64,000 bases of DNA. It comes from Verrucomicrobiia bacterium (GTDB lineage Bacteria > Verrucomicrobiota > Verrucomicrobiia > Verrucomicrobiales > DEV007). Of this stretch, positions 182 through 13,539 are shown one piece after another; positions within the stretch are counted from its first letter, which is position 1, and every line of letters begins with the position of its first letter. The notes under the pieces are model-generated. The model was not told where the DNA came from. It ran no database searches and saw only the letters and a program-made list of their open reading frames with translations. Position numbers and translations under genes: made by a program. The stretch covers positions 1-64,000 of the forward strand of contig JAUIAH010000011.1 of NCBI GenBank assembly GCA_030425385.1. The letters run 5' to 3'.

Positions 182-3100
182 TTGCTCACCGCTAGCGGTA
201 ATGACGAGACGAACGATTGTCCCTTACCAAAGACGCCGTCGGTCGGTGCCGGAGGATTCCGCATCTACCCGCTTCACGATGATCTAGAACTTCACAGCGC
301 GACGGGCCGCATATACTATCAATACTTCCCAGAGAGTCCGCATTCGGTTCATCGATGTGGGGTGCATGTCATCACTTGGCATGACGTCTTTCATGAGGGC
401 ACCACGAATAAGAAGACATTCTCATTTCAAGCGCTCCTGTTCGACAACCTGGATATCCTGTTTCAATACGGCCCCGGAAATCCTGAACAGGGCGAAGGGT
501 CTACCACGGGCATTCAGAACGCCACCGCTAGCATTGGCCTAAATGTGACCTGCAATGAGGAGCAAATTCCGGACGATTTCGCTATCCTGATTCAGCCGCC
601 AGTGATCGTCGTGACGACAAGCGACGACGAACTCGACACACCTGCAGGAACTGCCATTTCTCTACGGGAAGCGGTGCGTGATTCCCTTGATGGCGGACGC
701 ATCGAGTTTGCCTCAGGAATGAACCAACGGACAACTGAACTCGCGTCTTCTGAGGGGGGTGTTGGCACCTCACTTGGCATCGACGGCAAGAGCCTTGCTA
801 TCGATGCTTCCGCGCTCTCCGAGAAATTCCACATCACGGGGTCCAAGACAACCTCCCACTTCACCATCCGCAATGCTGGCTGGCTCTCCCTCGACAATCT
901 TAGCCTTGAGCAGGCGAGCGCTTCCGGATCGACCTACCTCGCAGACAGCTCGGGTCTCGTCGCTTGCTACTGCCGCTGGCTTGCCAACCGAGACTCGTCA
1001 ACAGACGAGGGCGGCGCGATTTCGATGCTCACGTCGAAGGCAACTGTCAAAAACGCAGCAGGACTCTATCGCTGCGACTTCATTGACAACTCGGCTTCTC
1101 TTCGTGGAGGCGCGATCTCGGTCACAGGCGACTCGAGACTACGGGCCGAGAAATGCCGTTTCTGGAGTAACAAGACTCCCGATAGCGTCAGCAGTTGTGG
1201 CGGTGCGATTTACCTAGCAAATGCGCGAGTTGAGCTGCGTGAATGTGACATTGCTACCAATATTGCGCGCTTGGGCGGCGGCATTTACGCATCGGGAGGG
1301 GTCGAGCTGGAGGCGATACGTTGTACCTTTGACGATAATCGTGCGCAGATAGGTGGCGGAGTGATCTACAATGGCACTAGCAAGGCATCGAGTGGCTTGT
1401 TCCGCTACTGTACGTTCTTTGGAAATTGCGCTTCGGCCGTAGGCGGTGCGATTGCAGAAGCGTCGTTCATACCCCCACTGGATCTCGATACGTGGCACTG
1501 CACCTTCTATAAAAATGTCGCTTGGAGCGGTGGCGGCGCGTTCTCGTTGGAAGATGCCACTTGCCATGCTGCCGCGATCATCATGGCGGACAACGGTAAT
1601 GATCAGTTACGCATCAGTGGGTCCGGTGCGCTCGATGGCACCATGGGCGATAACCTAGAGACTGGCAATGAGGCGAATTTCGCCTTCTATTGGGGACAGT
1701 CTGACATCACCGCAGGCCTCACCGACCTCGGCAATCACGGCGGCTTCGTCCGCACCTGTATGCTGCTGCAGGAAAGCGATGCGATCGACGCTGCGGTCCT
1801 CGGCGTTCGGTCACTCGCTTCTGATGCGCGCGGATTGCCTACGTTTCGCGACGGCGGTGCCACCGGCGATACGGCGCACGACTCCGGGGCGGTTGAGATT
1901 GGTCCGACCTTGGAGGTCACCCATGGCGCAGATAGCGGAAGCGGCTCTCTCCAAGTCGCGCTCAATGGCGTCCAAAGCGGTGGGGTGGTCGCAATCACGA
2001 CCAGTGACACTATCAACCTGCCATCTAGCGGTTTCACTGTCCCTGCGTCGCGCGCGGTCTTCGTGCAGGGCTATTCTTCTCGAACCCATGTGCACAACTT
2101 GGGGACCCATTTGAACAACCGTCAGGCTCTCGCGCTCTACAACATCGACGCGACAGCCGATGCCCCGGCAACTGGGATCACCACGGCCAAGGAGGCGCAG
2201 CTGACGACCCATTGTTGTACGTTCACAGGATTCGTCGTCCCTAACCGTCCCTTGCTTGAACTTCACGGCGCCAACTCGTTGCTCGCGACCACCATAAGCA
2301 ACGTGCTAATAGGGCCATCGCCTCCGATCCCAAGGGTCGCCTGCCTGGCCGTCAGAGGTGTTGACGCTACCATGATCACACGGGACTGCCTCTTCCAAGG
2401 CTGTCGCCCAATGGATCATGACTCGCTTTCAACCGTGATCGTCGATGGATCCAGTGCTCATTTCCAGCGATGCTCGCTTGTCGACAACATCGCGAACCCG
2501 ACGAATCTCTCCGGGGGTGTCATTGTCGCCACCACATCCCTTACCATCGGCAGCAGGGTCTGGCTTTACGCTGAGGGCAACACGATTGTTGACAACCACC
2601 TTAGTGGGAGCGGCAGTTGGACGTCGCGAGGTGGCGGTCTTGTGGTCGCTCCAATAGGCAATGCGTCGATCAATGTCCGCTCGGCTTTTGCCGTGATTAC
2701 GAACAACACAATTGCTAGCAATAGGAGTACAAACTCTGACACTGCGGCTGGTTTTTTCATTAATAATAACGGAGTTGATGAAGTGACTCTCACGCGCAAT
2801 ATCATTGCAAAAAACTCTATTAATGTGCTAACTGACGGTGTTGTTGATATCACTTCGGGTGGCGATAACCTCAGTGACACCGCACCATCGTTCTTCACAG
2901 CCACAGACATCCCATACGTTGATCCTCTCCTTGGGCCTGCCGTCTTCGGACCTAATCAAGTGCTTGTGTGCGTTCCCAGACCTGGCAGCCCATGCATTGA
3001 TGCCGCAGGAACCCTGGTGCGGCCTGATTCCGGATGCCTCGATGGACGGGGCCTTCCTCGAGCATTCGATGGCGATGGCGACAACGTTGCGCAGCTCGAT

Positions 3101-5386
3101 ATCGGTGCGGTCGAATCTGGTCGCGTACTCGCGGTCACAACAGATGTTTATGAAACCGATGGGCTCGGCAAGGGTGCTGGAAATTCCCTTCATGACTGTA
3201 TGGATGCCGCCGCAACTTTCGGCAACGTCAACATCGGCTTCGACCCAAGCCTGGACTACGCGACTTTGGAAATCCCGGTCAATGGAAGCAGCCTTACTCT
3301 AGCTGAAGATGCAACCGTCGACCTCGATGGCCGGAATACGAACATCGAGATCATGCGTTCCGATCTCACAGCCCTTTTCCAGTTAAGCGGCACTACGACG
3401 CTCTCGGTCAGCGGGCTGCATCTCAACGCTGATACCATGACGAATCAGAGTGGCTCGCATCCGGTCACCGTCGCCACTTACGCAGAATGTCGCATCCGCA
3501 CCAGCTGTGACTTCGCTAAAAGTAGGGCTCTGGTGGCCCATCGCGACTGCGACCTTACTGGCAGGGTCTTTGGTCCCGGCCACATGTTCTCGATGGGCGT
3601 CGGAGGCGAACGCCGGATTCATCGATGCACCTTTCACAACATCACTGGTAGCGGCCATATCCTCAATGCGGTCACACGCTCGCGACTTCTCGTCTCCGAC
3701 TCGACCTTCGCCAATAACGCAGTCAGCATCATCGAGAGCGACGAAGCGGCCATCCACCTGCTTCGATCGACGATAACACGCAATGGTGGCGGGTTGGTCT
3801 TCGATGGAACGTCGGACTCGACTCGGCCTTGCGTACTACGCGAATGCCTCATGGCTAACAATGCAGCAAACATCACAGGAACTGCCTCGGCTACTTCGAC
3901 CGGCCGCAATCATCTCGACTTCACCCATGCTGGCTTTAGTGCTGCCTTAGGCGACCGACAGAACCGGGCTGGCTACCTCGCGCCGCTTGCCGACTACGAT
4001 GGAGACGGTCGCATGGAAGCACCGCTTCTGGCCACCAGTGCCTCGTTCAATAGTAGTACTGGGGCTCCTTTGCCGAGCGGGGACGTCATCACGGTGACCA
4101 CGACCGCCAACCAACTCGATTCTCCAGCCGGAGCCGAAATCTCATTGCGTGAAGCCCTGCGGGATATCTCGGAACACGGCACCATTGTATTCGACGCCTC
4201 GCTCAATAACAAGACGTTCAACATGGGTAGCACCTTGGCTGTCGACAAGTCACTCACGATCGATGCCACCTCACTCCCACTCGGCATCGACCTCACCACT
4301 CGACTGTCCTGGACCGGCGGCCAGCGTATCGCCATGCGCGCCGTTCACATGCGTGACATCACTAACAGTTCCAATGGTGGAGCCATCTCTTGTACTGCAA
4401 ACGGCGGGGCGTTCATCGCCAGCCATTGTGCGTTCTCTGGAAACAATGGGAACAATGCCGGTGCTATCTACATCGTCGGTGCCGACCTCGTCCTGGAGAA
4501 TTGCACCTTCTCAGCGAACACGAGTACGGGGGCGAGTGCGATTGCTATGCCAGGTAGCCACGCGCGTATTGAGTTCTGTACTTTTGGTGAAGGTGTTGGA
4601 GGTCTTACCGCCGATACGGCCGCTCCGATCACAGGTGCGGGCCCCTCGTTCAACAGCCTCGACCTCTACGCGAGTGTCTTCTTTGATAACTTCACTTCCA
4701 ATGCCACGACGCTGGCCCAGTCCGTGGCCACGACTGCTGCCCTGAAATCGCGTGGCTATAACATGTTCCCCGATTCTCCCACGGGAGCACACGCAACGGA
4801 TGCAGCGGGACTCACCTTCTTGGGCGGCAACTTCATGGACTTCAAAGACTACGGCTTTGGCACGGCGTGGGTTCCGAGTTATGAAACCTTGCCCTTGGTG
4901 GGAGCGCCTATCGATTCTGTCTTATCGTCAGGGTTGGTGCCGCCTGAACACGACGCTCGGGGACTGACGCGCCCGGCACGGTCGTTGCCTGATGCAGGTG
5001 CCCATGAATGGGCCTCGGAGCTGGAGGATACGGACATGGACCTGCTCCCTGATTGGTGGGAACTCTTACAGGGCCTCAATCCGAATGTGGCAGATGACAC
5101 GAGCATCGATACCGATGGCGATGGTGCGTCGTTGTTGAATGAGTTTCAATGGCGCACGGATCCAAACGATGCCGCTTCCTTCTTCAATGCTGATCTGCGC
5201 CCCACGGCTATCGGTGCCGATATTCTTGTGAATACGGAAGCAGGCTACCCCTACATGCTTGAGACCTGTTCCGATGTCACCAGTTGGGAGCCAGCCAAGG
5301 GATTCTTCGGAACCGGTCCGAATCAGACGTTGCTGTACAGAACGAACGAAGACCGTCGCTTCTTTCGCATACGATTCAATTGGTGA
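182..5386 (+). CDS. large secreted parallel beta-helix protein (CSLREA / choice-of-anchor Q type), 5' end incomplete
   Basis: A probable extracellular or surface protein of 1734 residues from the first usable start (TTG at 182). Residues 20-140 resemble the bacterial nidogen-like 'TFQ..L....I.FQYG' fold. Four units follow that open with the CSLREA-type pattern 'VTT..D..D.....SLREA' at about 143, 577, 980 and 1302. Each leads into right-handed beta-helix coils rich in 'GGAI' and 'CTF', and several end in the choice-of-anchor Q motif 'D.RGLPR..D......DIGAVE'. The C-terminus carries a calcium-type 'DTDGDG' stretch near 1640 and a short 'S.....W......FFRIRF' module. No signal peptide is seen because the start is missing: in-frame coding runs back to 83 but ends in a stop. 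Specific ligand or substrate unknown. The family assignment is firm; whether the gene is functional is not. Confidence 0.75.
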   Translation: MLTASGNDETNDCPLPKTPSVGAGGFRIYPLHDDLELHSATGRIYYQYFPESPHSVHRCGVHVITWHDVFHEGTTNKKTFSFQALLFDNLDILFQYGPGNPEQGEGSTTGIQNATASIGLNVTCNEEQIPDDFAILIQPPVIVVTTSDDELDTPAGTAISLREAVRDSLDGGRIEFASGMNQRTTELASSEGGVGTSLGIDGKSLAIDASALSEKFHITGSKTTSHFTIRNAGWLSLDNLSLEQASASGSTYLADSSGLVACYCRWLANRDSSTDEGGAISMLTSKATVKNAAGLYRCDFIDNSASLRGGAISVTGDSRLRAEKCRFWSNKTPDSVSSCGGAIYLANARVELRECDIATNIARLGGGIYASGGVELEAIRCTFDDNRAQIGGGVIYNGTSKASSGLFRYCTFFGNCASAVGGAIAEASFIPPLDLDTWHCTFYKNVAWSGGGAFSLEDATCHAAAIIMADNGNDQLRISGSGALDGTMGDNLETGNEANFAFYWGQSDITAGLTDLGNHGGFVRTCMLLQESDAIDAAVLGVRSLASDARGLPTFRDGGATGDTAHDSGAVEIGPTLEVTHGADSGSGSLQVALNGVQSGGVVAITTSDTINLPSSGFTVPASRAVFVQGYSSRTHVHNLGTHLNNRQALALYNIDATADAPATGITTAKEAQLTTHCCTFTGFVVPNRPLLELHGANSLLATTISNVLIGPSPPIPRVACLAVRGVDATMITRDCLFQGCRPMDHDSLSTVIVDGSSAHFQRCSLVDNIANPTNLSGGVIVATTSLTIGSRVWLYAEGNTIVDNHLSGSGSWTSRGGGLVVAPIGNASINVRSAFAVITNNTIASNRSTNSDTAAGFFINNNGVDEVTLTRNIIAKNSINVLTDGVVDITSGGDNLSDTAPSFFTATDIPYVDPLLGPAVFGPNQVLVCVPRPGSPCIDAAGTLVRPDSGCLDGRGLPRAFDGDGDNVAQLDIGAVESGRVLAVTTDVYETDGLGKGAGNSLHDCMDAAATFGNVNIGFDPSLDYATLEIPVNGSSLTLAEDATVDLDGRNTNIEIMRSDLTALFQLSGTTTLSVSGLHLNADTMTNQSGSHPVTVATYAECRIRTSCDFAKSRALVAHRDCDLTGRVFGPGHMFSMGVGGERRIHRCTFHNITGSGHILNAVTRSRLLVSDSTFANNAVSIIESDEAAIHLLRSTITRNGGGLVFDGTSDSTRPCVLRECLMANNAANITGTASATSTGRNHLDFTHAGFSAALGDRQNRAGYLAPLADYDGDGRMEAPLLATSASFNSSTGAPLPSGDVITVTTTANQLDSPAGAEISLREALRDISEHGTIVFDASLNNKTFNMGSTLAVDKSLTIDATSLPLGIDLTTRLSWTGGQRIAMRAVHMRDITNSSNGGAISCTANGGAFIASHCAFSGNNGNNAGAIYIVGADLVLENCTFSANTSTGASAIAMPGSHARIEFCTFGEGVGGLTADTAAPITGAGPSFNSLDLYASVFFDNFTSNATTLAQSVATTAALKSRGYNMFPDSPTGAHATDAAGLTFLGGNFMDFKDYGFGTAWVPSYETLPLVGAPIDSVLSSGLVPPEHDARGLTRPARSLPDAGAHEWASELEDTDMDLLPDWWELLQGLNPNVADDTSIDTDGDGASLLNEFQWRTDPNDAASFFNADLRPTAIGADILVNTEAGYPYMLETCSDVTSWEPAKGFFGTGPNQTLLYRTNEDRRFFRIRFNW

Positions 5387-5476
5387 CCCTGTCATGGCCC
5401 GACTGCAGAAACTCTAGATAATCGTTAAGACCTGTGCGCGCGCGAGTTATCTCCTGATGACACCTCACATTATACG

Positions 5477-8400
5477 ATGATCGCGCTCACAAAACCACTT
5501 AGCCTTCTATGGTTCATCCTTGCATTTGCCTCACCAGCTTGGGCGGTCTTTCCGAAACCAGGAGATTGGAAACCGCTCGTACCCTCGCCCTCACCTAACT
5601 ACATGAACTGCGTCGCTTACGGAGACGGGCTCTGGGTCGCCGTGGGGGACTTTGGAGCCATCGCAACGTCCACCGATGGGGTGAACTGGACGCACCGCGA
5701 ATCCTCGGCACCCAAGGACTGGGGCGTCGATCAAATCACCGGGTTTGAGATCACTTCCGTCGCCTTTGGCAATGGCAAATGGGTTGCGTGTGGCGAAGGC
5801 GGTCTCGTGTACACTTCGAGTAACGGCACTGAGTGGTCGCACCACCTTGCCTACGAAGCAGAGCACAATTTCTTCGAAGAGATTGTCTATGCCGAGGGCT
5901 TGTGGGTGATGACAGGGACATACACCGGCGTCCTGACATCATCCGATGGCGATTCTTGGGTGCAGCGCTCTATCGATCAGGCCAATTGGATTTGGGCGTT
6001 AGCCTACGGAAACGGGCAATGGGTCTGTGTCGACACGGGCGGCAAACTCTATTCCAGTACGGATGCGGGAAGTTGGCGGCTTCAGGGAACGGTACCCGTA
6101 GACAACAACCAGTGGATTGAAGATATTCATCATGCAGACGGCCAATGGATCGCCGTCAGCGACAAGCCCAGCACTACTGGCTCTGGCAAGATCTTCTCCT
6201 CGACGGATCTTGAGTCATGGACCCTTCGTGAGGAAGTGCCCCTCCATAAATTGCTATCTGTCTCACATGCGAACGGCCTGTGGATCGCTTGTGGCGGAGC
6301 CAATGGCATTGCGGACGCTATTGCGGATAGTGGGTATGAGGGTGGGGTCATGCTGACATCCCCTGACGGCATCACATGGACCGAGCGACCAATCGCGCGC
6401 TCGACAATCAATTGGGAAGTGGCTCACGGCAACGGGCGTTGGTTAGCAGCAAGCTCAAGCCATGGCGGTCTGGCCTATTCTGACAATGGCATTAATTGGC
6501 ATAGCCACCAAGCTCACTCGATAGACACGTTACCGTTGATCTTGGATGCCGACTATCATGACGGCATGTGGGTCGCCTCTCAGACTGAGGGCACCATTCT
6601 GCAATCGACCGATGGGAAGCACTGGATCAGCCGCGTTCTAGATGATCGCGAACTTTCGGATTGGTTCCAGGTGGTCCATTACTCTGAAACCTTTGGGAAG
6701 TGGTATGTCGGAGGAGACTTCGGGCGGCTCTACACCTCGGATGATGGTGTCGTTTGGGAGCGTGTTAGCATCGGCATCCGTGGTGTCGAGGGCATCGCCG
6801 AAGGCAACGGGAAGATTCTTTGTGTCGGACGCAGTTGGGACGTGTATGAGTCGACGAATGGCATGACTTGGGCCGAAGCGGATCATCCGCAGAAGGGCGT
6901 GGCCGAGGGCCGCTACAAGGCGGTATCCTATCAGAACGGCACCTGGGCTCTCTGTGGCTCTGCTGGCACGGTCGTCTATTCGACCGACGATGGCGATTCC
7001 TGGTCGAAGTCGACTATTCCGGGCGGAGATCGGCTCAATGACATCCACTTTGCCAACGGACTCTGGGTTGCCTGTGACAGACGCGGCGATATCTTCTCGT
7101 CAACTAATCTGGGAAGCTGGACCAAAGCTAGTCTCCCCTCACGTAACCATCCTCGGATTGGTAGCAACGTCGACTACATCGATTCCACCTGGGTGTTCAC
7201 TGGCTTGACTGAGTGGACCGATGGGCATGTGTTCACTTCGTCGGATGGCAAGAACTGGAACCTGCAGCCGCCAACCGTCTATCCAGGAGGCGCGATCGAA
7301 GAGATCATCAAAGTAGACGACGACTGGTATGCCTTTGGCAGGACGATGCTGGGAGTCGGTTTTGTGATGTCGACGACAGACTTTCCGGCGGAAGACTCGA
7401 CGGATAGAAGCCTGATCTTCTCAGATTCTGCCAGCTACACTGTCACGGATACGAATGAACCAGAGCAGTTCACCAGCTTACCGATGGCGGAAACGCTAGG
7501 CGGCGGCGAGGAGACCCTCTACGTTTCCTTTCAAATCAAACGTGAGAGCGGTTTTGGACCGCTTCTGGATTTCACCGCCCTGCAACTTTCACGCAGTGCG
7601 ACCCATTTGCCGATGAAGGATGATCTCGGCTTTGGAAACGGCGGCCCGACGACCTTCTACGGGATCATCGTCGAACCCCTGCATACGAGTTGGCCAGACA
7701 CTCAAATCCCGCTCGACAACGACACCCACACGATTATTGCGAGGATCGATTATGCTGCCGGGACGGTTTCCATGGTGACCGATCCGCAGTCCGCTTCCGA
7801 TATCGAGTCGGCCAGACGCCACCCGGCGCCTACAAACCCCTTCAGCACGATCATGCTGCGTGCGGGGCACAATGACACTTCGTACACCTACAGCAGGATT
7901 GCGTTAGGAGAGAGCGCTGAAGCGGTGTTGGCCTTTACAGAGCAAGCAAGTCCAGGAGTTCCTAACAGTGAACTGGATCCGATCAACTTCCGCGAATGGG
8001 AGTGGAAGAAGCCTGTGCTCACGAGCGAAGACATCAACGATGTGGCCTACGGAGGCGGTCGCTACGTGGCGGTAACGGATCACGCTCACATTCTCTGGTC
8101 AGACGACGGCCTTGCGTGGCAACACGCCCTGGAATTACCAGCACCGGACGGAGACCTCCACAGCGTCGCCTACGGCGGCGGTCGCTGGGTCGCTATGGGA
8201 GTGGGAAGGGATTACACGTCAACTGATGGCGTTCATTGGGAGGCAATCGCTGGATCTGAAGGTCGAGGTATTCTGGATGTCGCCGTTCACAGCACCCGCT
8301 GGGTGGCGGTTGGCGATGGCGTCTTCACATCGCGCAACGGGACCGTATGGGAAGAAGTGCCGAATGTCACCGAGGCGTTTCTCAATGGTGTGGATTATGG

Positions 8401-10078
8401 CAATGGCCTTTGGGTGATTGCTAGCACCCAGGGGGAAATTCACTCCTCTCCTGACGGAGTCACCTGGACAGAGCGGCGACCCGCACCGACCGAGCGCGAC
8501 TGGATTCAACGAGTCCGGTATCTCGATGGCTACTGGATGTTGCCTGGGGCTGATCGCATCTTAACCTCCCGTGACGGTATCAACTGGACGTCGCGCATTG
8601 CCAGTGATCCCGATACGGTCACTCAGCTTTACGATGTCCTCAAAACGGCTGATGGGAAGTGGCAGGCAGTCGGTTGGGCATCGACCACTACAAGCGATCC
8701 AGAGAACTGGCCCGCGATGGAAACGCCTGACTCGACGGTTCGAAGTAGTGTCCGTGGGCCTGACGGGCGCGTGATCATGGTAGGTGAGTTTGGCTTTCTT
8801 GAGAGTTTGAAGGAGGAGTCCACTTTCGTAGTAGGGCCCGGAGAACGTACTGACACCACGGCCGATATCGTTTCGGCAGCCTATGGAAACGGGATTTGGT
8901 TAGCCGCGAGTGATAGTGATCGAGGAGGCTCGCATCTCTGGCGATCGACGACGGGCGGAAACTATACTAACGTTAGACTGCCTGTTGCAGGTATGCGCGT
9001 TTCCTCGTTAAGTTATGGTGATGGCGAGTTTCTCGTCGCTGGTGAACAGGGAGCTGTCAGGATCTTTAGTTCGTCAGATGGCCTCACTTGGGAAGAGCAA
9101 AGTATTGCCGAGTTCCTACCAGCGGCTTTGTTAGATGGCCATCAGGCTGGTGGCCAGTCGGTGTTCGTTGGGTTCGGAGGGAACATCTACCATCGCAGTA
9201 GCGGAAGTCCCGAGGCGTTTACCAGTGCGGCTACTGGAACGATCAGCCATCTGAACGCCGTAACTTTTGGTAACGGCACTTGGGTGGCCGTCGGTTTGGA
9301 TGGAACCATCATATCGACAACGTCTCCCGAATCCTGGGAAGTCCAGGATCTGGTGCCTGCGATCAGGAAGTCCTTCAGAGATGTCTTCTTTGCCAATGGC
9401 CTCTTTGTGGCGGTGGGTGATGACAGTACCATCCGCACTTCCATAGACGGGGTCACCTGGGAAGATCCTGTTGCGAGAGAAGGTGACGTGGACTTCGTAG
9501 CCGTTACTTTCCACGAAGCGCGGCAGCAATGGTATGCCGCAGATGATTCGGGGAACCTATTCGGATCGGACGATGGGTCGGATTGGAAATACGCCGTTAA
9601 CTTAACCGATAAGGGAGCAGCTGGAATGCTCTACGCCGACGGTCAATTGATCGTCTATGGTGCTGACGGTTCAATCATTGCTCACGGAACACCGACCATC
9701 GATTCCACTCCAGCGCCGAGACTTACTGGATTCGAGAAATGGATGGAAACTAACAACATCGCTGATCCTATGGCTAACGTCAATGGCAGGACCGCCTTGG
9801 AAAGCTACGTACTCGCGACGGATCTCGGTACGCCTTCCAATAGACCCGATCCCTTTGTTAACGACGAGCTCACCGCTTACCTCGCGATCGTCCGCAGGGA
9901 CTTGGAAGGGATTCTCGTGGAAGCCGAGTATTCCGTAGATCTCGTCAACTGGACGGATCTTTCCAAGGCCACTGCTCAAATGGAACTGGGAGCCGATTTC
10001 GCCGAACAGCTTTGGATCGTGAACAAGGACCCCACAGGTTTGGGCTACTTCCGGTTGAGAATAGAACTCGTCGATTGA
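5477..10078 (+). CDS. giant secreted Asp-box-like repeat protein (multi-beta-propeller)
   Basis: 1533 residues. The ATG at 5477 opens a clear signal peptide (hydrophobic stretch ending ASPAWA), so export is likely. The body is a chain of roughly 25 units of 45-50 residues, each with a 'YGNGLWVAVG..G.I' strand followed by a turn 'S.DG..W'. This resembles the Asp-box turns of sialidase/Ycf48-like propellers. The chain is interrupted at about residues 640-825 by a different beta-sandwich-like insert ending '..IMLRAGH', possibly lectin-like. The last 110 residues form a non-propeller tail ending in 'V.YSVDLVNWTDL....FRLR', similar to the tails of neighbouring secreted proteins. It lies 90 bases after the beta-helix gene on the same strand. 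No catalytic residues are recognised, so a binding or adhesion role is inferred. Confidence 0.8.
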   Translation: MIALTKPLSLLWFILAFASPAWAVFPKPGDWKPLVPSPSPNYMNCVAYGDGLWVAVGDFGAIATSTDGVNWTHRESSAPKDWGVDQITGFEITSVAFGNGKWVACGEGGLVYTSSNGTEWSHHLAYEAEHNFFEEIVYAEGLWVMTGTYTGVLTSSDGDSWVQRSIDQANWIWALAYGNGQWVCVDTGGKLYSSTDAGSWRLQGTVPVDNNQWIEDIHHADGQWIAVSDKPSTTGSGKIFSSTDLESWTLREEVPLHKLLSVSHANGLWIACGGANGIADAIADSGYEGGVMLTSPDGITWTERPIARSTINWEVAHGNGRWLAASSSHGGLAYSDNGINWHSHQAHSIDTLPLILDADYHDGMWVASQTEGTILQSTDGKHWISRVLDDRELSDWFQVVHYSETFGKWYVGGDFGRLYTSDDGVVWERVSIGIRGVEGIAEGNGKILCVGRSWDVYESTNGMTWAEADHPQKGVAEGRYKAVSYQNGTWALCGSAGTVVYSTDDGDSWSKSTIPGGDRLNDIHFANGLWVACDRRGDIFSSTNLGSWTKASLPSRNHPRIGSNVDYIDSTWVFTGLTEWTDGHVFTSSDGKNWNLQPPTVYPGGAIEEIIKVDDDWYAFGRTMLGVGFVMSTTDFPAEDSTDRSLIFSDSASYTVTDTNEPEQFTSLPMAETLGGGEETLYVSFQIKRESGFGPLLDFTALQLSRSATHLPMKDDLGFGNGGPTTFYGIIVEPLHTSWPDTQIPLDNDTHTIIARIDYAAGTVSMVTDPQSASDIESARRHPAPTNPFSTIMLRAGHNDTSYTYSRIALGESAEAVLAFTEQASPGVPNSELDPINFREWEWKKPVLTSEDINDVAYGGGRYVAVTDHAHILWSDDGLAWQHALELPAPDGDLHSVAYGGGRWVAMGVGRDYTSTDGVHWEAIAGSEGRGILDVAVHSTRWVAVGDGVFTSRNGTVWEEVPNVTEAFLNGVDYGNGLWVIASTQGEIHSSPDGVTWTERRPAPTERDWIQRVRYLDGYWMLPGADRILTSRDGINWTSRIASDPDTVTQLYDVLKTADGKWQAVGWASTTTSDPENWPAMETPDSTVRSSVRGPDGRVIMVGEFGFLESLKEESTFVVGPGERTDTTADIVSAAYGNGIWLAASDSDRGGSHLWRSTTGGNYTNVRLPVAGMRVSSLSYGDGEFLVAGEQGAVRIFSSSDGLTWEEQSIAEFLPAALLDGHQAGGQSVFVGFGGNIYHRSSGSPEAFTSAATGTISHLNAVTFGNGTWVAVGLDGTIISTTSPESWEVQDLVPAIRKSFRDVFFANGLFVAVGDDSTIRTSIDGVTWEDPVAREGDVDFVAVTFHEARQQWYAADDSGNLFGSDDGSDWKYAVNLTDKGAAGMLYADGQLIVYGADGSIIAHGTPTIDSTPAPRLTGFEKWMETNNIADPMANVNGRTALESYVLATDLGTPSNRPDPFVNDELTAYLAIVRRDLEGILVEAEYSVDLVNWTDLSKATAQMELGADFAEQLWIVNKDPTGLGYFRLRIELVD

Positions 10079-10143
10079 TTTAAAATACAAACGTAAACAT
10101 ACATATTGTGAAGTATCGTTACTTGTTTCACTTGTTTGTAGGT

Positions 10144-10298
10144 TAGAAGCTAAAGGTCTACTGCCCGGCTTGGGTAGCAACCCATTCTGGGAAAGGCGTA
10201 AACCTCGGCAAAGGCATCTTCTAAATGAATCGCGCCTAACTGATCCAATACTTCGGGATACAAGGCGGACGAACAGACGTATTTCTCATTCTCAGATT
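10144..10298 (-). pseudogene. decayed duplicate of the 3' end of the HAD phosphatase gene
   Basis: Positions 10144-10187 match 12866-12909 with one mismatch, and 10188-10298 match 13113-13223 with about six mismatches, in the same orientation. The 203 bases in between (12910-13112), which hold the catalytic GD..LD region in the intact copy, are missing here, which also shifts the frame. The fragment sits directly beyond the 3' end of the esterase-like gene, so that gene is flanked by two copies of the HAD gene's end. No promoter or start survives. This is a remnant, not an expressed gene. The rest of the 10079-10328 gap holds nothing else recognisable. Confidence 0.85.
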
Positions 10299-10328
10299 TG
10301 GGCCACTGCGAGTCTTTCAATTTCCGAA

Positions 10329-12866
10329 TTAATTGGTTAGACCATCCCCGGGCGACTCCTCCTGTAGGGCGCGCACACGGTAGAATTGCGTGAGTCCCGA
10401 TGATGGCAGGACTGCTCGATAAGCAACGACACCCTCAGCTAGCGCGGCCTCCTGGTCTAACACCACGTTTGTCGGTTCCCAATCACTACCCAGAGTCGAC
10501 GACTGCTCGATCACATACCCCCTGCCGTCTTGGCTGGCTCGCCCGTGAAACGTGAGCGCCCCCTGGGCATACCTCAGCGTCGGCCGGGAAGCTGCTTTCC
10601 ATGGATGGCTTCCGAATAGATACTCGTCGATGTTCGCGTGGCCATCACGATCCGGGTCGTCATGACGTTCCATCTGATCGAACGGTGCTCCGTCTGGGCG
10701 TAAGATATCGATCCAATCCTCGAAGCTACTCGCCGATGACGCGATCCCTACTTGGCCTTTCAATTGCGCGGCAATGAGGAAATCCGAACTCCCACGGCTC
10801 TCGTTCAAACCGGCGATGGCCAGCAAATTGGTGCCTTCTTCTAACAAATGCCTTACCGATGTCAGATCCACCACCGCACCAGTGACCGCGAGACTATCAC
10901 TGTGATAATAGAATGGTTCAGAATCGACGGAAGGATCAGCAGCCATACCCCGTTCCACGATAGGAGTACCGTTCAGGTAAGCCACATACGCATCATCATA
11001 GTTCATCGTGAGCGAAAGGCGTAGGACATCTTCCGGCGCGGCCACTTCAAACGGAATGCGCAGGTAGAGCAGCGCTTGCTTGTCCGCCATCTCACTCCTG
11101 ACATCCGTGTTGATCCACGGGCCATACGTGCTCTCACGATCGTACCCGACGCCATTGATACCGTCATGAAAGGCCACTTCACCGAGAACGGAAAGCTTGG
11201 GGAGCATCCACGTCGTCCTCAGGAGGTCCCCATTGGGGACGAACCAGCGCAACGGCTGGGCGTCTCCCACGAAGGTCACCTCTTCGGTGGCGACCGTTTC
11301 GTAATGAAGATCCGAAGAGATCGTATCGATGCCATCCGTGGCCGAGACGCTCAGCGTGTGGCGACCGACTTCATGACTGCGATAGTCCAGACGAACCCGC
11401 CCTTCATGGAACTCTTGCGCGACCACTTCAAGATCGGGCGAAGACGTGACGGTGATGGTCACCACCGTCGGGAGACTCGTTTCAAAGTGCCATGTGGCTG
11501 TGTGAATGGCCCCGGGAAGGCCTCGCGAAATCTCTGCTTTGGGATAGCCCTGGACGAGACTCAGCCCGTCACCGACGCGCACCCGATCGCTCGACTCGGC
11601 ACTCTCTTGGCCTTCAGCGTCCCGCACGACGGCTGTGATCTCGTAGATGCCGTCATCTGCCAATTGATAGTCCACGTTGTTGCCTTCTCTCACATCATTG
11701 CCAATATGCCAGTGAACCGTGAACTCGTCTGACACGCCATTTGCGCGTAACGAGAAACGCTCGCCCGCGGCCACCGTGCTCGGCAAATCAAGGTGAACAA
11801 TAGGCGGTGGTGGTGGCACCATCGCATCCGTCGGTAACAAGCCCGAACCGGGTGACTCAATAGACCTTGCGAGGTACGCCGCCGACCACGCGAAGTCTAG
11901 CGTGCCCGTGTGCTTGCCGATCCACGCCATGTAGTGGAGATAGTCCATCACATAAGGTCCAGAGGGCAGGTCAGCAAACGCCGTCTGCCCGACCGATTGA
12001 TAGTCTGCGAGGATCTCTTCGAGCACGGATTGGGCTTCAAGGCTGTGATAGGATCTCGGAGAATTCATCAACGCGTGAAGACACTGCGCCGTGACCTTGC
12101 TAAGATCCCCGGCAAAGAGTTGCTGCCGCCAGGCGACAGCTTGACGGAAAGCGTCCGCTTTGGCAGTTGGGGCAGGTTTGGCTCGAGCGTCTAACATCCA
12201 TCGAAGGGCTTCTTGTTGTACGCTGGGAGGTGACTCTTCGTGGTCCCCGGGAAATGACCAGTCGCGAATCGTTACGCCGTAGGTCGACAAGTGCGCACGA
12301 TCGCGATCGAGTTGCCCATTGGCTCCCACATCATTGGCCCCATTGGAGCGCGACACGAGCAGGCCTTCCAGGAAACGATCTGTCTCACCATGCTGATTGC
12401 CGAGCCAACCACCCATGGCAAAGACGCCCGCGAGGTGAGGGCGCATCACCTTCGTGGCATCGTAGGCATTCCAAGCCCCACCGGACATCCCCGCAGTGAA
12501 CTGCGCCGTGGGATCGATATGGAGTCGCTCGCGCACATCACGCATCACGGCATAGAACTCCCCGGCGGTTTCGCGCCAGTCCCGGCCGTTCTCCACCCCT
12601 TTGATCCCTATCACAATGATACCGAGCGCTTCGCCCGTAGCCTCAAAGCTCGACACCATTCCGTTGGGATTGAAAGACATCGTATAAATGACAGGCGATG
12701 GCGTTCCTTCCTCCGAATAGCTCGAAGGCACATAAACGTCGTAGCTATATTGCGGGAAAGCCGCGCAAGTGGCTTCCCCTCGCTCGCCTGGAGAAACCTC
12801 GTAGGCGCGAAGGAACCCCATTCCCAAGGCCATCATGAGACTCACGCGATAGGACCAAGCACCCAT
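10329..12866 (-). CDS. secreted esterase/PHB-depolymerase-like protein with PKD-like and C-terminal modules
   Basis: 845 residues from the ATG at 12866; a longer frame exists but its extra N-terminus only retranslates the HAD gene out of frame. A signal peptide is present (MGAWSYRV followed by a hydrophobic run). Residues about 30-230 look like an alpha/beta hydrolase of the feruloyl-esterase/PHB-depolymerase type, with the nucleophile elbow GMSGG near residue 125. Then come a helical middle region, a PKD-like domain at about 365-440 ('D.GIYEITAVV.D..G'), and a galactose-binding-like sandwich near 560-690 ('AYLNGTPIV', 'EGTNLLAI'). The tail has 'DPDRDGHANIDEYLFGSHP' and the 'IEQSSTLGSDW....FYRVR' module common to secreted proteins here. 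Substrate unknown. It is separated from the HAD gene by 13 bases and flanked by HAD-derived direct repeats. Confidence 0.75.
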   Translation of the reverse strand: MGAWSYRVSLMMALGMGFLRAYEVSPGERGEATCAAFPQYSYDVYVPSSYSEEGTPSPVIYTMSFNPNGMVSSFEATGEALGIIVIGIKGVENGRDWRETAGEFYAVMRDVRERLHIDPTAQFTAGMSGGAWNAYDATKVMRPHLAGVFAMGGWLGNQHGETDRFLEGLLVSRSNGANDVGANGQLDRDRAHLSTYGVTIRDWSFPGDHEESPPSVQQEALRWMLDARAKPAPTAKADAFRQAVAWRQQLFAGDLSKVTAQCLHALMNSPRSYHSLEAQSVLEEILADYQSVGQTAFADLPSGPYVMDYLHYMAWIGKHTGTLDFAWSAAYLARSIESPGSGLLPTDAMVPPPPPIVHLDLPSTVAAGERFSLRANGVSDEFTVHWHIGNDVREGNNVDYQLADDGIYEITAVVRDAEGQESAESSDRVRVGDGLSLVQGYPKAEISRGLPGAIHTATWHFETSLPTVVTITVTSSPDLEVVAQEFHEGRVRLDYRSHEVGRHTLSVSATDGIDTISSDLHYETVATEEVTFVGDAQPLRWFVPNGDLLRTTWMLPKLSVLGEVAFHDGINGVGYDRESTYGPWINTDVRSEMADKQALLYLRIPFEVAAPEDVLRLSLTMNYDDAYVAYLNGTPIVERGMAADPSVDSEPFYYHSDSLAVTGAVVDLTSVRHLLEEGTNLLAIAGLNESRGSSDFLIAAQLKGQVGIASSASSFEDWIDILRPDGAPFDQMERHDDPDRDGHANIDEYLFGSHPWKAASRPTLRYAQGALTFHGRASQDGRGYVIEQSSTLGSDWEPTNVVLDQEAALAEGVVAYRAVLPSSGLTQFYRVRALQEESPGDGLTN

Positions 12867-12879
12867 AGAAGCTAAAGGT

Positions 12880-13539
12880 CTACAGCCCGGCTTGGGTAGC
12901 AACCCATTCGTGGATCGCCCGGTGATCTTGGAAGTCTGGGATGGTGTGGACGCCGAGATCATCGAAGGGATTGCTGTCCGGCTTGCGCACGCCGATGAAG
13001 TGGACATCGGCCGCGACGGCTGCGCGGAAATCGAGGATCGTGTCCCCCCAGAAGATGATGGGCTGCCCGGGATGCTCTTCTTTCAGTTTCGTCAAGACAT
13101 TGGCTTTCCGGTTGGGAAAAGCATAAACCTCAGCAAAGGCATCTTCTAAATGAATCGCTCCTAACTGATCCAACACCTCGGGATACAAGGCGGACGAACA
13201 GACGTATTTCTCATTCTCAGATTCTTGAATGAAGGGGACCACGCCTGCCACTGGCGGCGCCTTGAGCAACCCTTCTTTGATGAAATGATAGGAGTCATCC
13301 AACAGGCGATCTACTTCTCCTTCCAGGCCTTCTTTGATTCCAACAATTTCTCCGAGCACGTGCATGAGTTTGTCCCGGCGAGCCAGACCCACATTGGCTC
13401 GATTGAACGCACGGATGGCAGGAAGGTGTTCGGCATATTCCTGCGCGAGCAGTTCCTCGAAGAGCCGCAATTTGATCGGCTCCGATTCCACGAGGACACC
13501 GTCCTTATCGAAGACGAAGATGGGAAGCGCTTGGGGCAT
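12880..13539 (-). CDS. HAD-family hydrolase, phosphoglycolate-phosphatase-like
   Basis: 219 residues from the ATG at 13539. An in-frame TTG at 13575 overlaps the stop of the upstream glycosyltransferase by 3-4 bases and could be used instead, giving 231. All HAD motifs are visible: motif I 'FDKDGVLVES' with the nucleophile Asp at the very N-terminus, a helical cap, motif II Ser in 'VCSSAL', the conserved Lys region 'NRKANVL', and motif IV 'WGDTILDF'. The family removes phosphate from small phosphorylated metabolites in the cytoplasm; the substrate cannot be read from sequence. It is probably co-transcribed with the GT4 gene. Its 3' end is the source of the decayed copy at 10144-10298. Confidence 0.85.
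   Translation of the reverse strand: MPQALPIFVFDKDGVLVESEPIKLRLFEELLAQEYAEHLPAIRAFNRANVGLARRDKLMHVLGEIVGIKEGLEGEVDRLLDDSYHFIKEGLLKAPPVAGVVPFIQESENEKYVCSSALYPEVLDQLGAIHLEDAFAEVYAFPNRKANVLTKLKEEHPGQPIIFWGDTILDFRAAVAADVHFIGVRKPDSNPFDDLGVHTIPDFQDHRAIHEWVATQAGL

Follow-up and report, generated by a model that had tools for sequence, protein, structure and literature searches.

A 2.57-kb segment with a complete esterase-like gene sits 14 nt past the stop codon of a HAD-superfamily phosphatase gene in the 64-kb stretch of DNA analyzed here (the window) and, judging from the sequence, originally had about 358 bp of the HAD gene end on both sides. We give somewhat better than an even chance to insertion with long target duplication as the way in which the gene was gained, with one illegitimate join and recombination between the HAD end and related DNA. 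Gain of single genes by bacteria without a mobile element is poorly documented, and long target duplication is known yet little studied. Here, several cases of the same scar occur in one environmental verrucomicrobial genome, and one of these cases still carries a trace of the locus it came from.

Along the minus strand, the intact HAD gene comes first, followed by 13 nt, the esterase-like gene, 30 nt, a copy of the HAD end and then unrelated sequence (Table 1). Two pairs of segments in direct orientation, 10144-10187 with 12866-12909 (97.7% identity; BLAST E 9e-14) and 10188-10298 with 13113-13223 (94.6% identity; BLAST E 1e-43), are the strongest internal repeats in the window, self-match aside, and both have the positions and orientation given in the original prediction. 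The same prediction held that one HAD copy is intact and that the other has lost 203 nt including the catalytic region. This loss (the counterpart of 12910-13112, HAD codons 143-210) is confirmed; it shifts the reading frame and includes the GDTILD motif, and motif I (DKDG, HAD codon 11) lies outside the duplicated stretch and was thus never in the remnant. The edge of homology was likewise correctly placed: the last base of the repeat, 12866, is the A of the esterase gene's minus-strand ATG start codon. The duplicated stretch would before the loss have run for about 358 bp, from HAD codon 106 to 14 nt beyond the stop codon. The esterase-like gene does lie between the repeats, but not exactly from one to the other, because its stop codon is followed by 30 nt from the end of an FG-GAP gene. 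No microhomology was found at the 10298/10299 joint between this FG-GAP end and the HAD interior when the window, the second locus described below and the HAD gene were compared. The window contains no tRNA gene, and a tRNA attachment site therefore plays no part. Adjoining the locus, positions 182-10078 hold, on the opposite strand, two genes of secreted type and very large size (1734 and 1533 aa), which encode repeat-rich proteins.

Table 1. Features of the HAD-esterase locus (window coordinates) and of loci with similar layouts elsewhere in the genome (contig:coordinates)
Feature	Position	Strand	Basis or description
HAD-superfamily phosphatase gene, intact, 219 aa; target gene	12880..13539	-	Pfam PF00702 9e-9, HAD_2 2e-5; orthologues
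HAD 3' end from codon 106 plus 14 nt downstream, 358 bp, read as originally duplicated	12866..13223	-	Outer limits of the repeat pairs
Putative inserted segment of 2567 bp with the esterase-like gene and 30 nt past its stop codon	10299..12865		Lies between repeat copies; far end matches C60 up to the junction
Esterase-like gene, 845 aa, beginning 13 nt past the HAD stop codon	10329..12866	-	Open frame; PKD_4 3e-6; order-level matches
Stretch common to C60:62157-62298 at 93%	10299..10437		10299-10332 is the FG-GAP/ASPIC gene end there; the rest is the esterase 3' end
Second HAD 3'-end copy, truncated	10144..10298	-	111 + 44 bp remain; 203 nt missing between 10187 and 10188
Putative illegitimate junction, FG-GAP end/HAD interior	10298..10299		Sequence comparison
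Unrelated sequence past the remnant, read as the original HAD downstream flank	10079..10143		No second copy in own genome
M48 case, same contig as the window	C7:169761-172926		Intact M48 peptidase gene (172090-172926), 1632-bp insert, displaced M48 end
RHH/DUF5615 case	C55:486590-490718		136-bp direct copies around a 972-bp insert
VapB gene and broken PIN gene	C59:125644-127367		486-bp direct copies, 88%; older-looking, weaker case
HNH nuclease gene	C39:85444-88324		483-bp direct copies, 85%; older-looking, weaker case

A search of the organism's own 8.0-Mb genome gave a clue to the source. At the far end of the segment, 139 bp made up of the esterase 3' end and the 30 nt beyond it match contig C60 at a level far above the background of paralogous genes (at most 75% over comparable lengths). 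The match begins exactly where the HAD remnant ends, and no further copy beyond C60 was detected in the 8-Mb genome. At C60, the first 34 nt of the match belong to the final part of an intact FG-GAP/ASPIC gene; its homologues align to within 3 residues of the end, and the FG-GAP end is therefore native there. The other 108 nt are the end of a truncated esterase gene that converges on the FG-GAP gene, with overlapping TAA stop codons, and its differences from the window's copy occur at all codon positions, as expected of a decaying copy. Since the segment carries the end of the esterase gene's former neighbor, the esterase gene once adjoined an FG-GAP gene, as in the C60 arrangement. On these comparisons the inserted segment stems from a C60-like arrangement, C60 itself having lost the esterase gene. 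This lends support to the suggestion, made in the original prediction, that the secreted-hydrolase gene was inserted at a HAD end, here into it or behind it; at its far end the segment includes 30-34 nt from the end of a different gene, common to a second locus.

The C60 esterase end is adjoined by 45 bp that are 82-89% identical to the orfA end of same-genus IS3-type elements, and then comes the end of a sigma-factor gene; esterase end, orfA scrap and sigma-factor end are fused within about 170 bp (C60:62190-62362). A longer intact esterase end at C60 was considered and rejected, the adjoining bases being the IS3-type orfA scrap. Adjacency of C60 and C7, the contig of the window, is not demonstrable; C7 begins in a repeat common to C70, C49 and C47.

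Similar layouts were sought by comparing about 2.47 Mb of the 8.0-Mb genome with itself. There are three clear cases, with duplications of about 358 bp (HAD), 697 bp (M48) and 136 bp (RHH/DUF5615), and lengths range from 61 to 697 bp overall. In the M48 case, the end of a peptidase gene is repeated at 97% identity and the homology stops within the stop codon; the insert holds a DUF234/ATPase_2 gene along with another gene's 3' end, and no near-identical copy of it exists elsewhere in the genome (best other matches 67-73%). In the RHH/DUF5615 case, the repeat spans a gene end and the first codons of the next gene, and the cargo, encoding ribbon-helix-helix and DUF5615 PIN-like proteins, is by its domains a probable toxin-antitoxin pair. 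Several of the differences between these copies alter amino acids; allelic divergence is not a feature of every case. The inserts share no recognized ends. Together, these loci show that the scar recurs in one genome, not that it is enriched.

The differences between the repeat copies bear on their age. All six in the 111-bp coding repeat are synonymous third-position changes (P = 0.0014 under neutrality), and at codons 121 and 140, the two clearly polarized sites, all three relatives agree with the remnant, making the intact copy derived and the remnant ancestral. No codon constraint is expected on a copy that has neither promoter nor start codon. Synonymous-only differences and a derived intact copy are most simply read to mean that the HAD ends were already different alleles before they were joined, which suggests that the two copies diverged as working alleles before the event and not by decay. 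Decay following the duplication, as originally proposed, accordingly holds for the frame-shifting deletion but not for the substitutions in the 111-bp part, which are unlike those of a freely decaying copy. In the M48 case, 15 of 20 differences fall at third positions (P = 0.00017). The counts are small (6 and 20); pooled over both cases, 21 of 27 differences are at third positions (P = 3e-6 against one third; P = 0.0005 against 0.45, that is, with half of the changes in a constrained copy). The M48 differences are concentrated toward the 3' end of the gene, the first 278 bp holding a single one, a pattern that a recombination tract might produce.

In the favored reading, the donor DNA would have come from a related strain in which the esterase gene already stood behind its HAD allele. 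The incoming DNA would have recombined homologously within the HAD end, where the synonymous divergence of the HAD copies suggests the anchor of a homology-facilitated illegitimate recombination (HFIR), while an illegitimate join, formed for instance via a circle or a sister chromosome, would have connected its other end with the inside of the resident HAD gene. The outcome would be an intact HAD gene, a new gene downstream of it and displacement of the resident's HAD end, which would afterwards have lost the 203 nt. Such an event needs a single illegitimate junction and would explain the allelic differences, the native-looking composition of the insert and the stop of homology at a boundary of gene content. 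The GC and GC3 of the esterase gene (0.578 and 0.635) equal those of its neighbors, which fits a close donor. The genome also contains a ComEC-like gene, as most bacteria do; it is compatible with DNA uptake but is not evidence of it.

The original prediction proposed examining the same locus in related genomes. The records closest to this organism are MAGs of the Verrucomicrobiales. Each of three same-genus genomes has a single HAD orthologue (65-70% identity); within the 13-20 kb around it, no ORF of the window other than the HAD gene is matched. The gene was thus found, but with no shared flanks there is no readable empty site in the three genomes, nor did any of the relatives searched provide a donor genome with HAD-esterase adjacency. 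It is for this reason that we infer the direction and source of the transfer.

The same scar would also be left by copying within the chromosome, whereby DNA synthesis during replication or repair of the HAD end moved over to C60, ran through the esterase gene and the adjoining 30 nt, and returned to the HAD gene at a point 358 bp upstream, the C60 esterase gene being lost later around an IS3-type insertion. A single event would then yield the whole layout, C60 does hold the matching esterase and FG-GAP ends beside IS3 scrap, and the divergence of the HAD copies (4.5%) is similar to that of the C60 copy (about 5%). We nevertheless consider this rather unlikely: two illegitimate junctions are needed, one of them falling by chance at a start codon, a promoterless copy should gain non-synonymous changes and none is found in the 111-bp part, and the M48-case insert has no other copy in the genome. 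Plain tandem duplication of the HAD gene, or of the HAD and esterase genes, followed by loss and decay, had been the other option in the original prediction. It would produce direct repeats of a single orientation with one copy truncated, as observed, yet it accounts neither for the FG-GAP piece at the junction and the unrelated sequence past the remnant nor for homology ending precisely at the esterase start codon, and no second esterase copy lies past the remnant; it is therefore improbable.

Several cassettes with the same layout in one genome could point to a mobile cassette served by a dedicated integrase or transposase, with very long target duplications as the product. The inserted segment, in which just one ORF is plausibly coding, has no recombinase gene, however, and the variable duplication lengths, the lack of recognized ends common to the inserts and the confinement of IS3-type scrap to C60, outside the window's insert, make this highly improbable. 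The attributes of a transposon or IS (transposase, terminal inverted repeats, short target duplication) were not found; the duplication is far too long, and the sole inverted repeat nearby links the insert to an outside gene at 76%. An assembly artefact, which the original prediction named as a possible refutation, is made unlikely by the structure of the contigs. Contig ends overlap by exactly 127 bp (C48/C10 and C7/C70), and N runs are absent from about 2.47 Mb apart from one stretch, indicating a de Bruijn assembly with k = 127; by this evidence from contig sequence, 127-mers across both junctions of the 155-bp remnant should exist in the reads. The assembly is fragmented, the copies differ as strains do and the identical runs beside the junction are short (46 and 52 bp), all of which would suit a two-strain chimera in a metagenome bin. 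Equal identical runs at junctions, the signature expected of such a chimera, were looked for and rejected, as the runs (46, 52 and 97 bp) correspond to no single k and differ between cases. With an estimated contamination of 0.32% in addition, a chimera has little likelihood.

The cargo is termed esterase-like, or hydrolase-like, on the strength of a GMSGG motif and our reading of the N-terminal domain. The protein comprises an N-terminal signal-peptide-like stretch, the hydrolase-like domain with GMSGG, a PKD domain and a C-terminal domain, and the hydrolase is apparently secreted. The PKD domain is the only Pfam match; Pfam gave no hydrolase match and no restriction or methylase domain, the PDB gave no match, and a single-sequence structure model was unusable (pLDDT 37). 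The N-terminal 340 aa or so, the hydrolase part, have matches of 32-37% to proteins of the same order, in which they are rare. Shared C-terminal domains aside, no orthologue occurs among 57 relatives, and a scan of a genome collection likewise gave none. The gene lies immediately behind the HAD gene in the same direction, and the two probably share a transcript.

Insertion with long target duplication was named by Nobusato et al. 2000 (Gene 259:99) in Helicobacter pylori, where, according to PMC1643837 and PMC3874152, the inserts carry restriction-modification genes, have duplications of the order of 100 bp and were found by strain comparison. As far as those accounts go, the present layout is alike in that a gene or gene pair lies between direct target copies that vary in length from the order of 100 bp upward, and in that no transposase is needed. 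It differs from the H. pylori cases they describe in its cargo (a secreted-hydrolase-like gene here, an ATPase and toxin-antitoxin genes at the other loci), in having longer duplications (about 358 and 697 bp), in the visibility of one end of the source locus and in the lack of an empty-site strain. Restriction-modification genes are the usual cargo of such insertions and do not define the layout. The HAD-esterase case thus fits a known layout and adds a visible source trace; its mechanism is what we infer.

HFIR is known during conjugation (PMC3240628), and homology-facilitated illegitimate recombination with displaced gene ends has been proposed for the T6SS immunity arrays of Vibrio cholerae (PMC5361080). 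As there, a homologous anchor at one end would be paired with an illegitimate join at the other, bringing a new gene in and displacing the old gene end downstream. In the T6SS arrays, however, variable effector genes lie downstream of the anchor and immunity genes form part of the displaced piece, whereas here the target remains whole and the remnant consists solely of its own 3' end. Merodiploids formed by natural transformation (Johnston et al. 2013; PMC3784515) are similar in that incoming DNA pairs alternatively and bridges sister chromatids to give direct duplications; those duplications are of about 100-900 kb and use repeats, in contrast to the 0.1-0.7 kb and unrelated junction seen here. 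Transposed Arabidopsis genes (PMC2869330) are also flanked by direct repeats that are present at the target site, and integration of a circle was proposed for them, but they are eukaryotic and their repeats are mostly shorter.

If the scars arise by recombination with related strains, they would be simple markers of recent single-gene gains and could serve to test if homology-facilitated illegitimate recombination and long target duplication amount to the same process. That the lineage repeatedly gains single genes or small cassettes (hydrolase, ATPase, toxin-antitoxin, nuclease) by a common route leaving target duplications of 0.1-0.7 kb, with displaced ends recording each gain and its sister-strain source, is a broader proposition that we regard as doubtful.

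Other repeats in the genome proved to be of different kinds. Those at C59 134-5258 and C6 472679 surround REP-type transposase genes and were rejected as instances of the scar. The C6 94918/97934 pair was also rejected, as it belongs to a diversity-generating retroelement (C6:94918-98972) with a reverse transcriptase gene (95058-96050, minus strand), a template repeat (94918-95043) and a variable repeat (97934-98059); the variable repeat lies in an FGE-sulfatase-type gene, and 17 of 17 differences fall at template adenines. The same contig carries a 1.58-kb direct duplication of 98.6% identity with a 264-bp spacer (C6:441829-445257).
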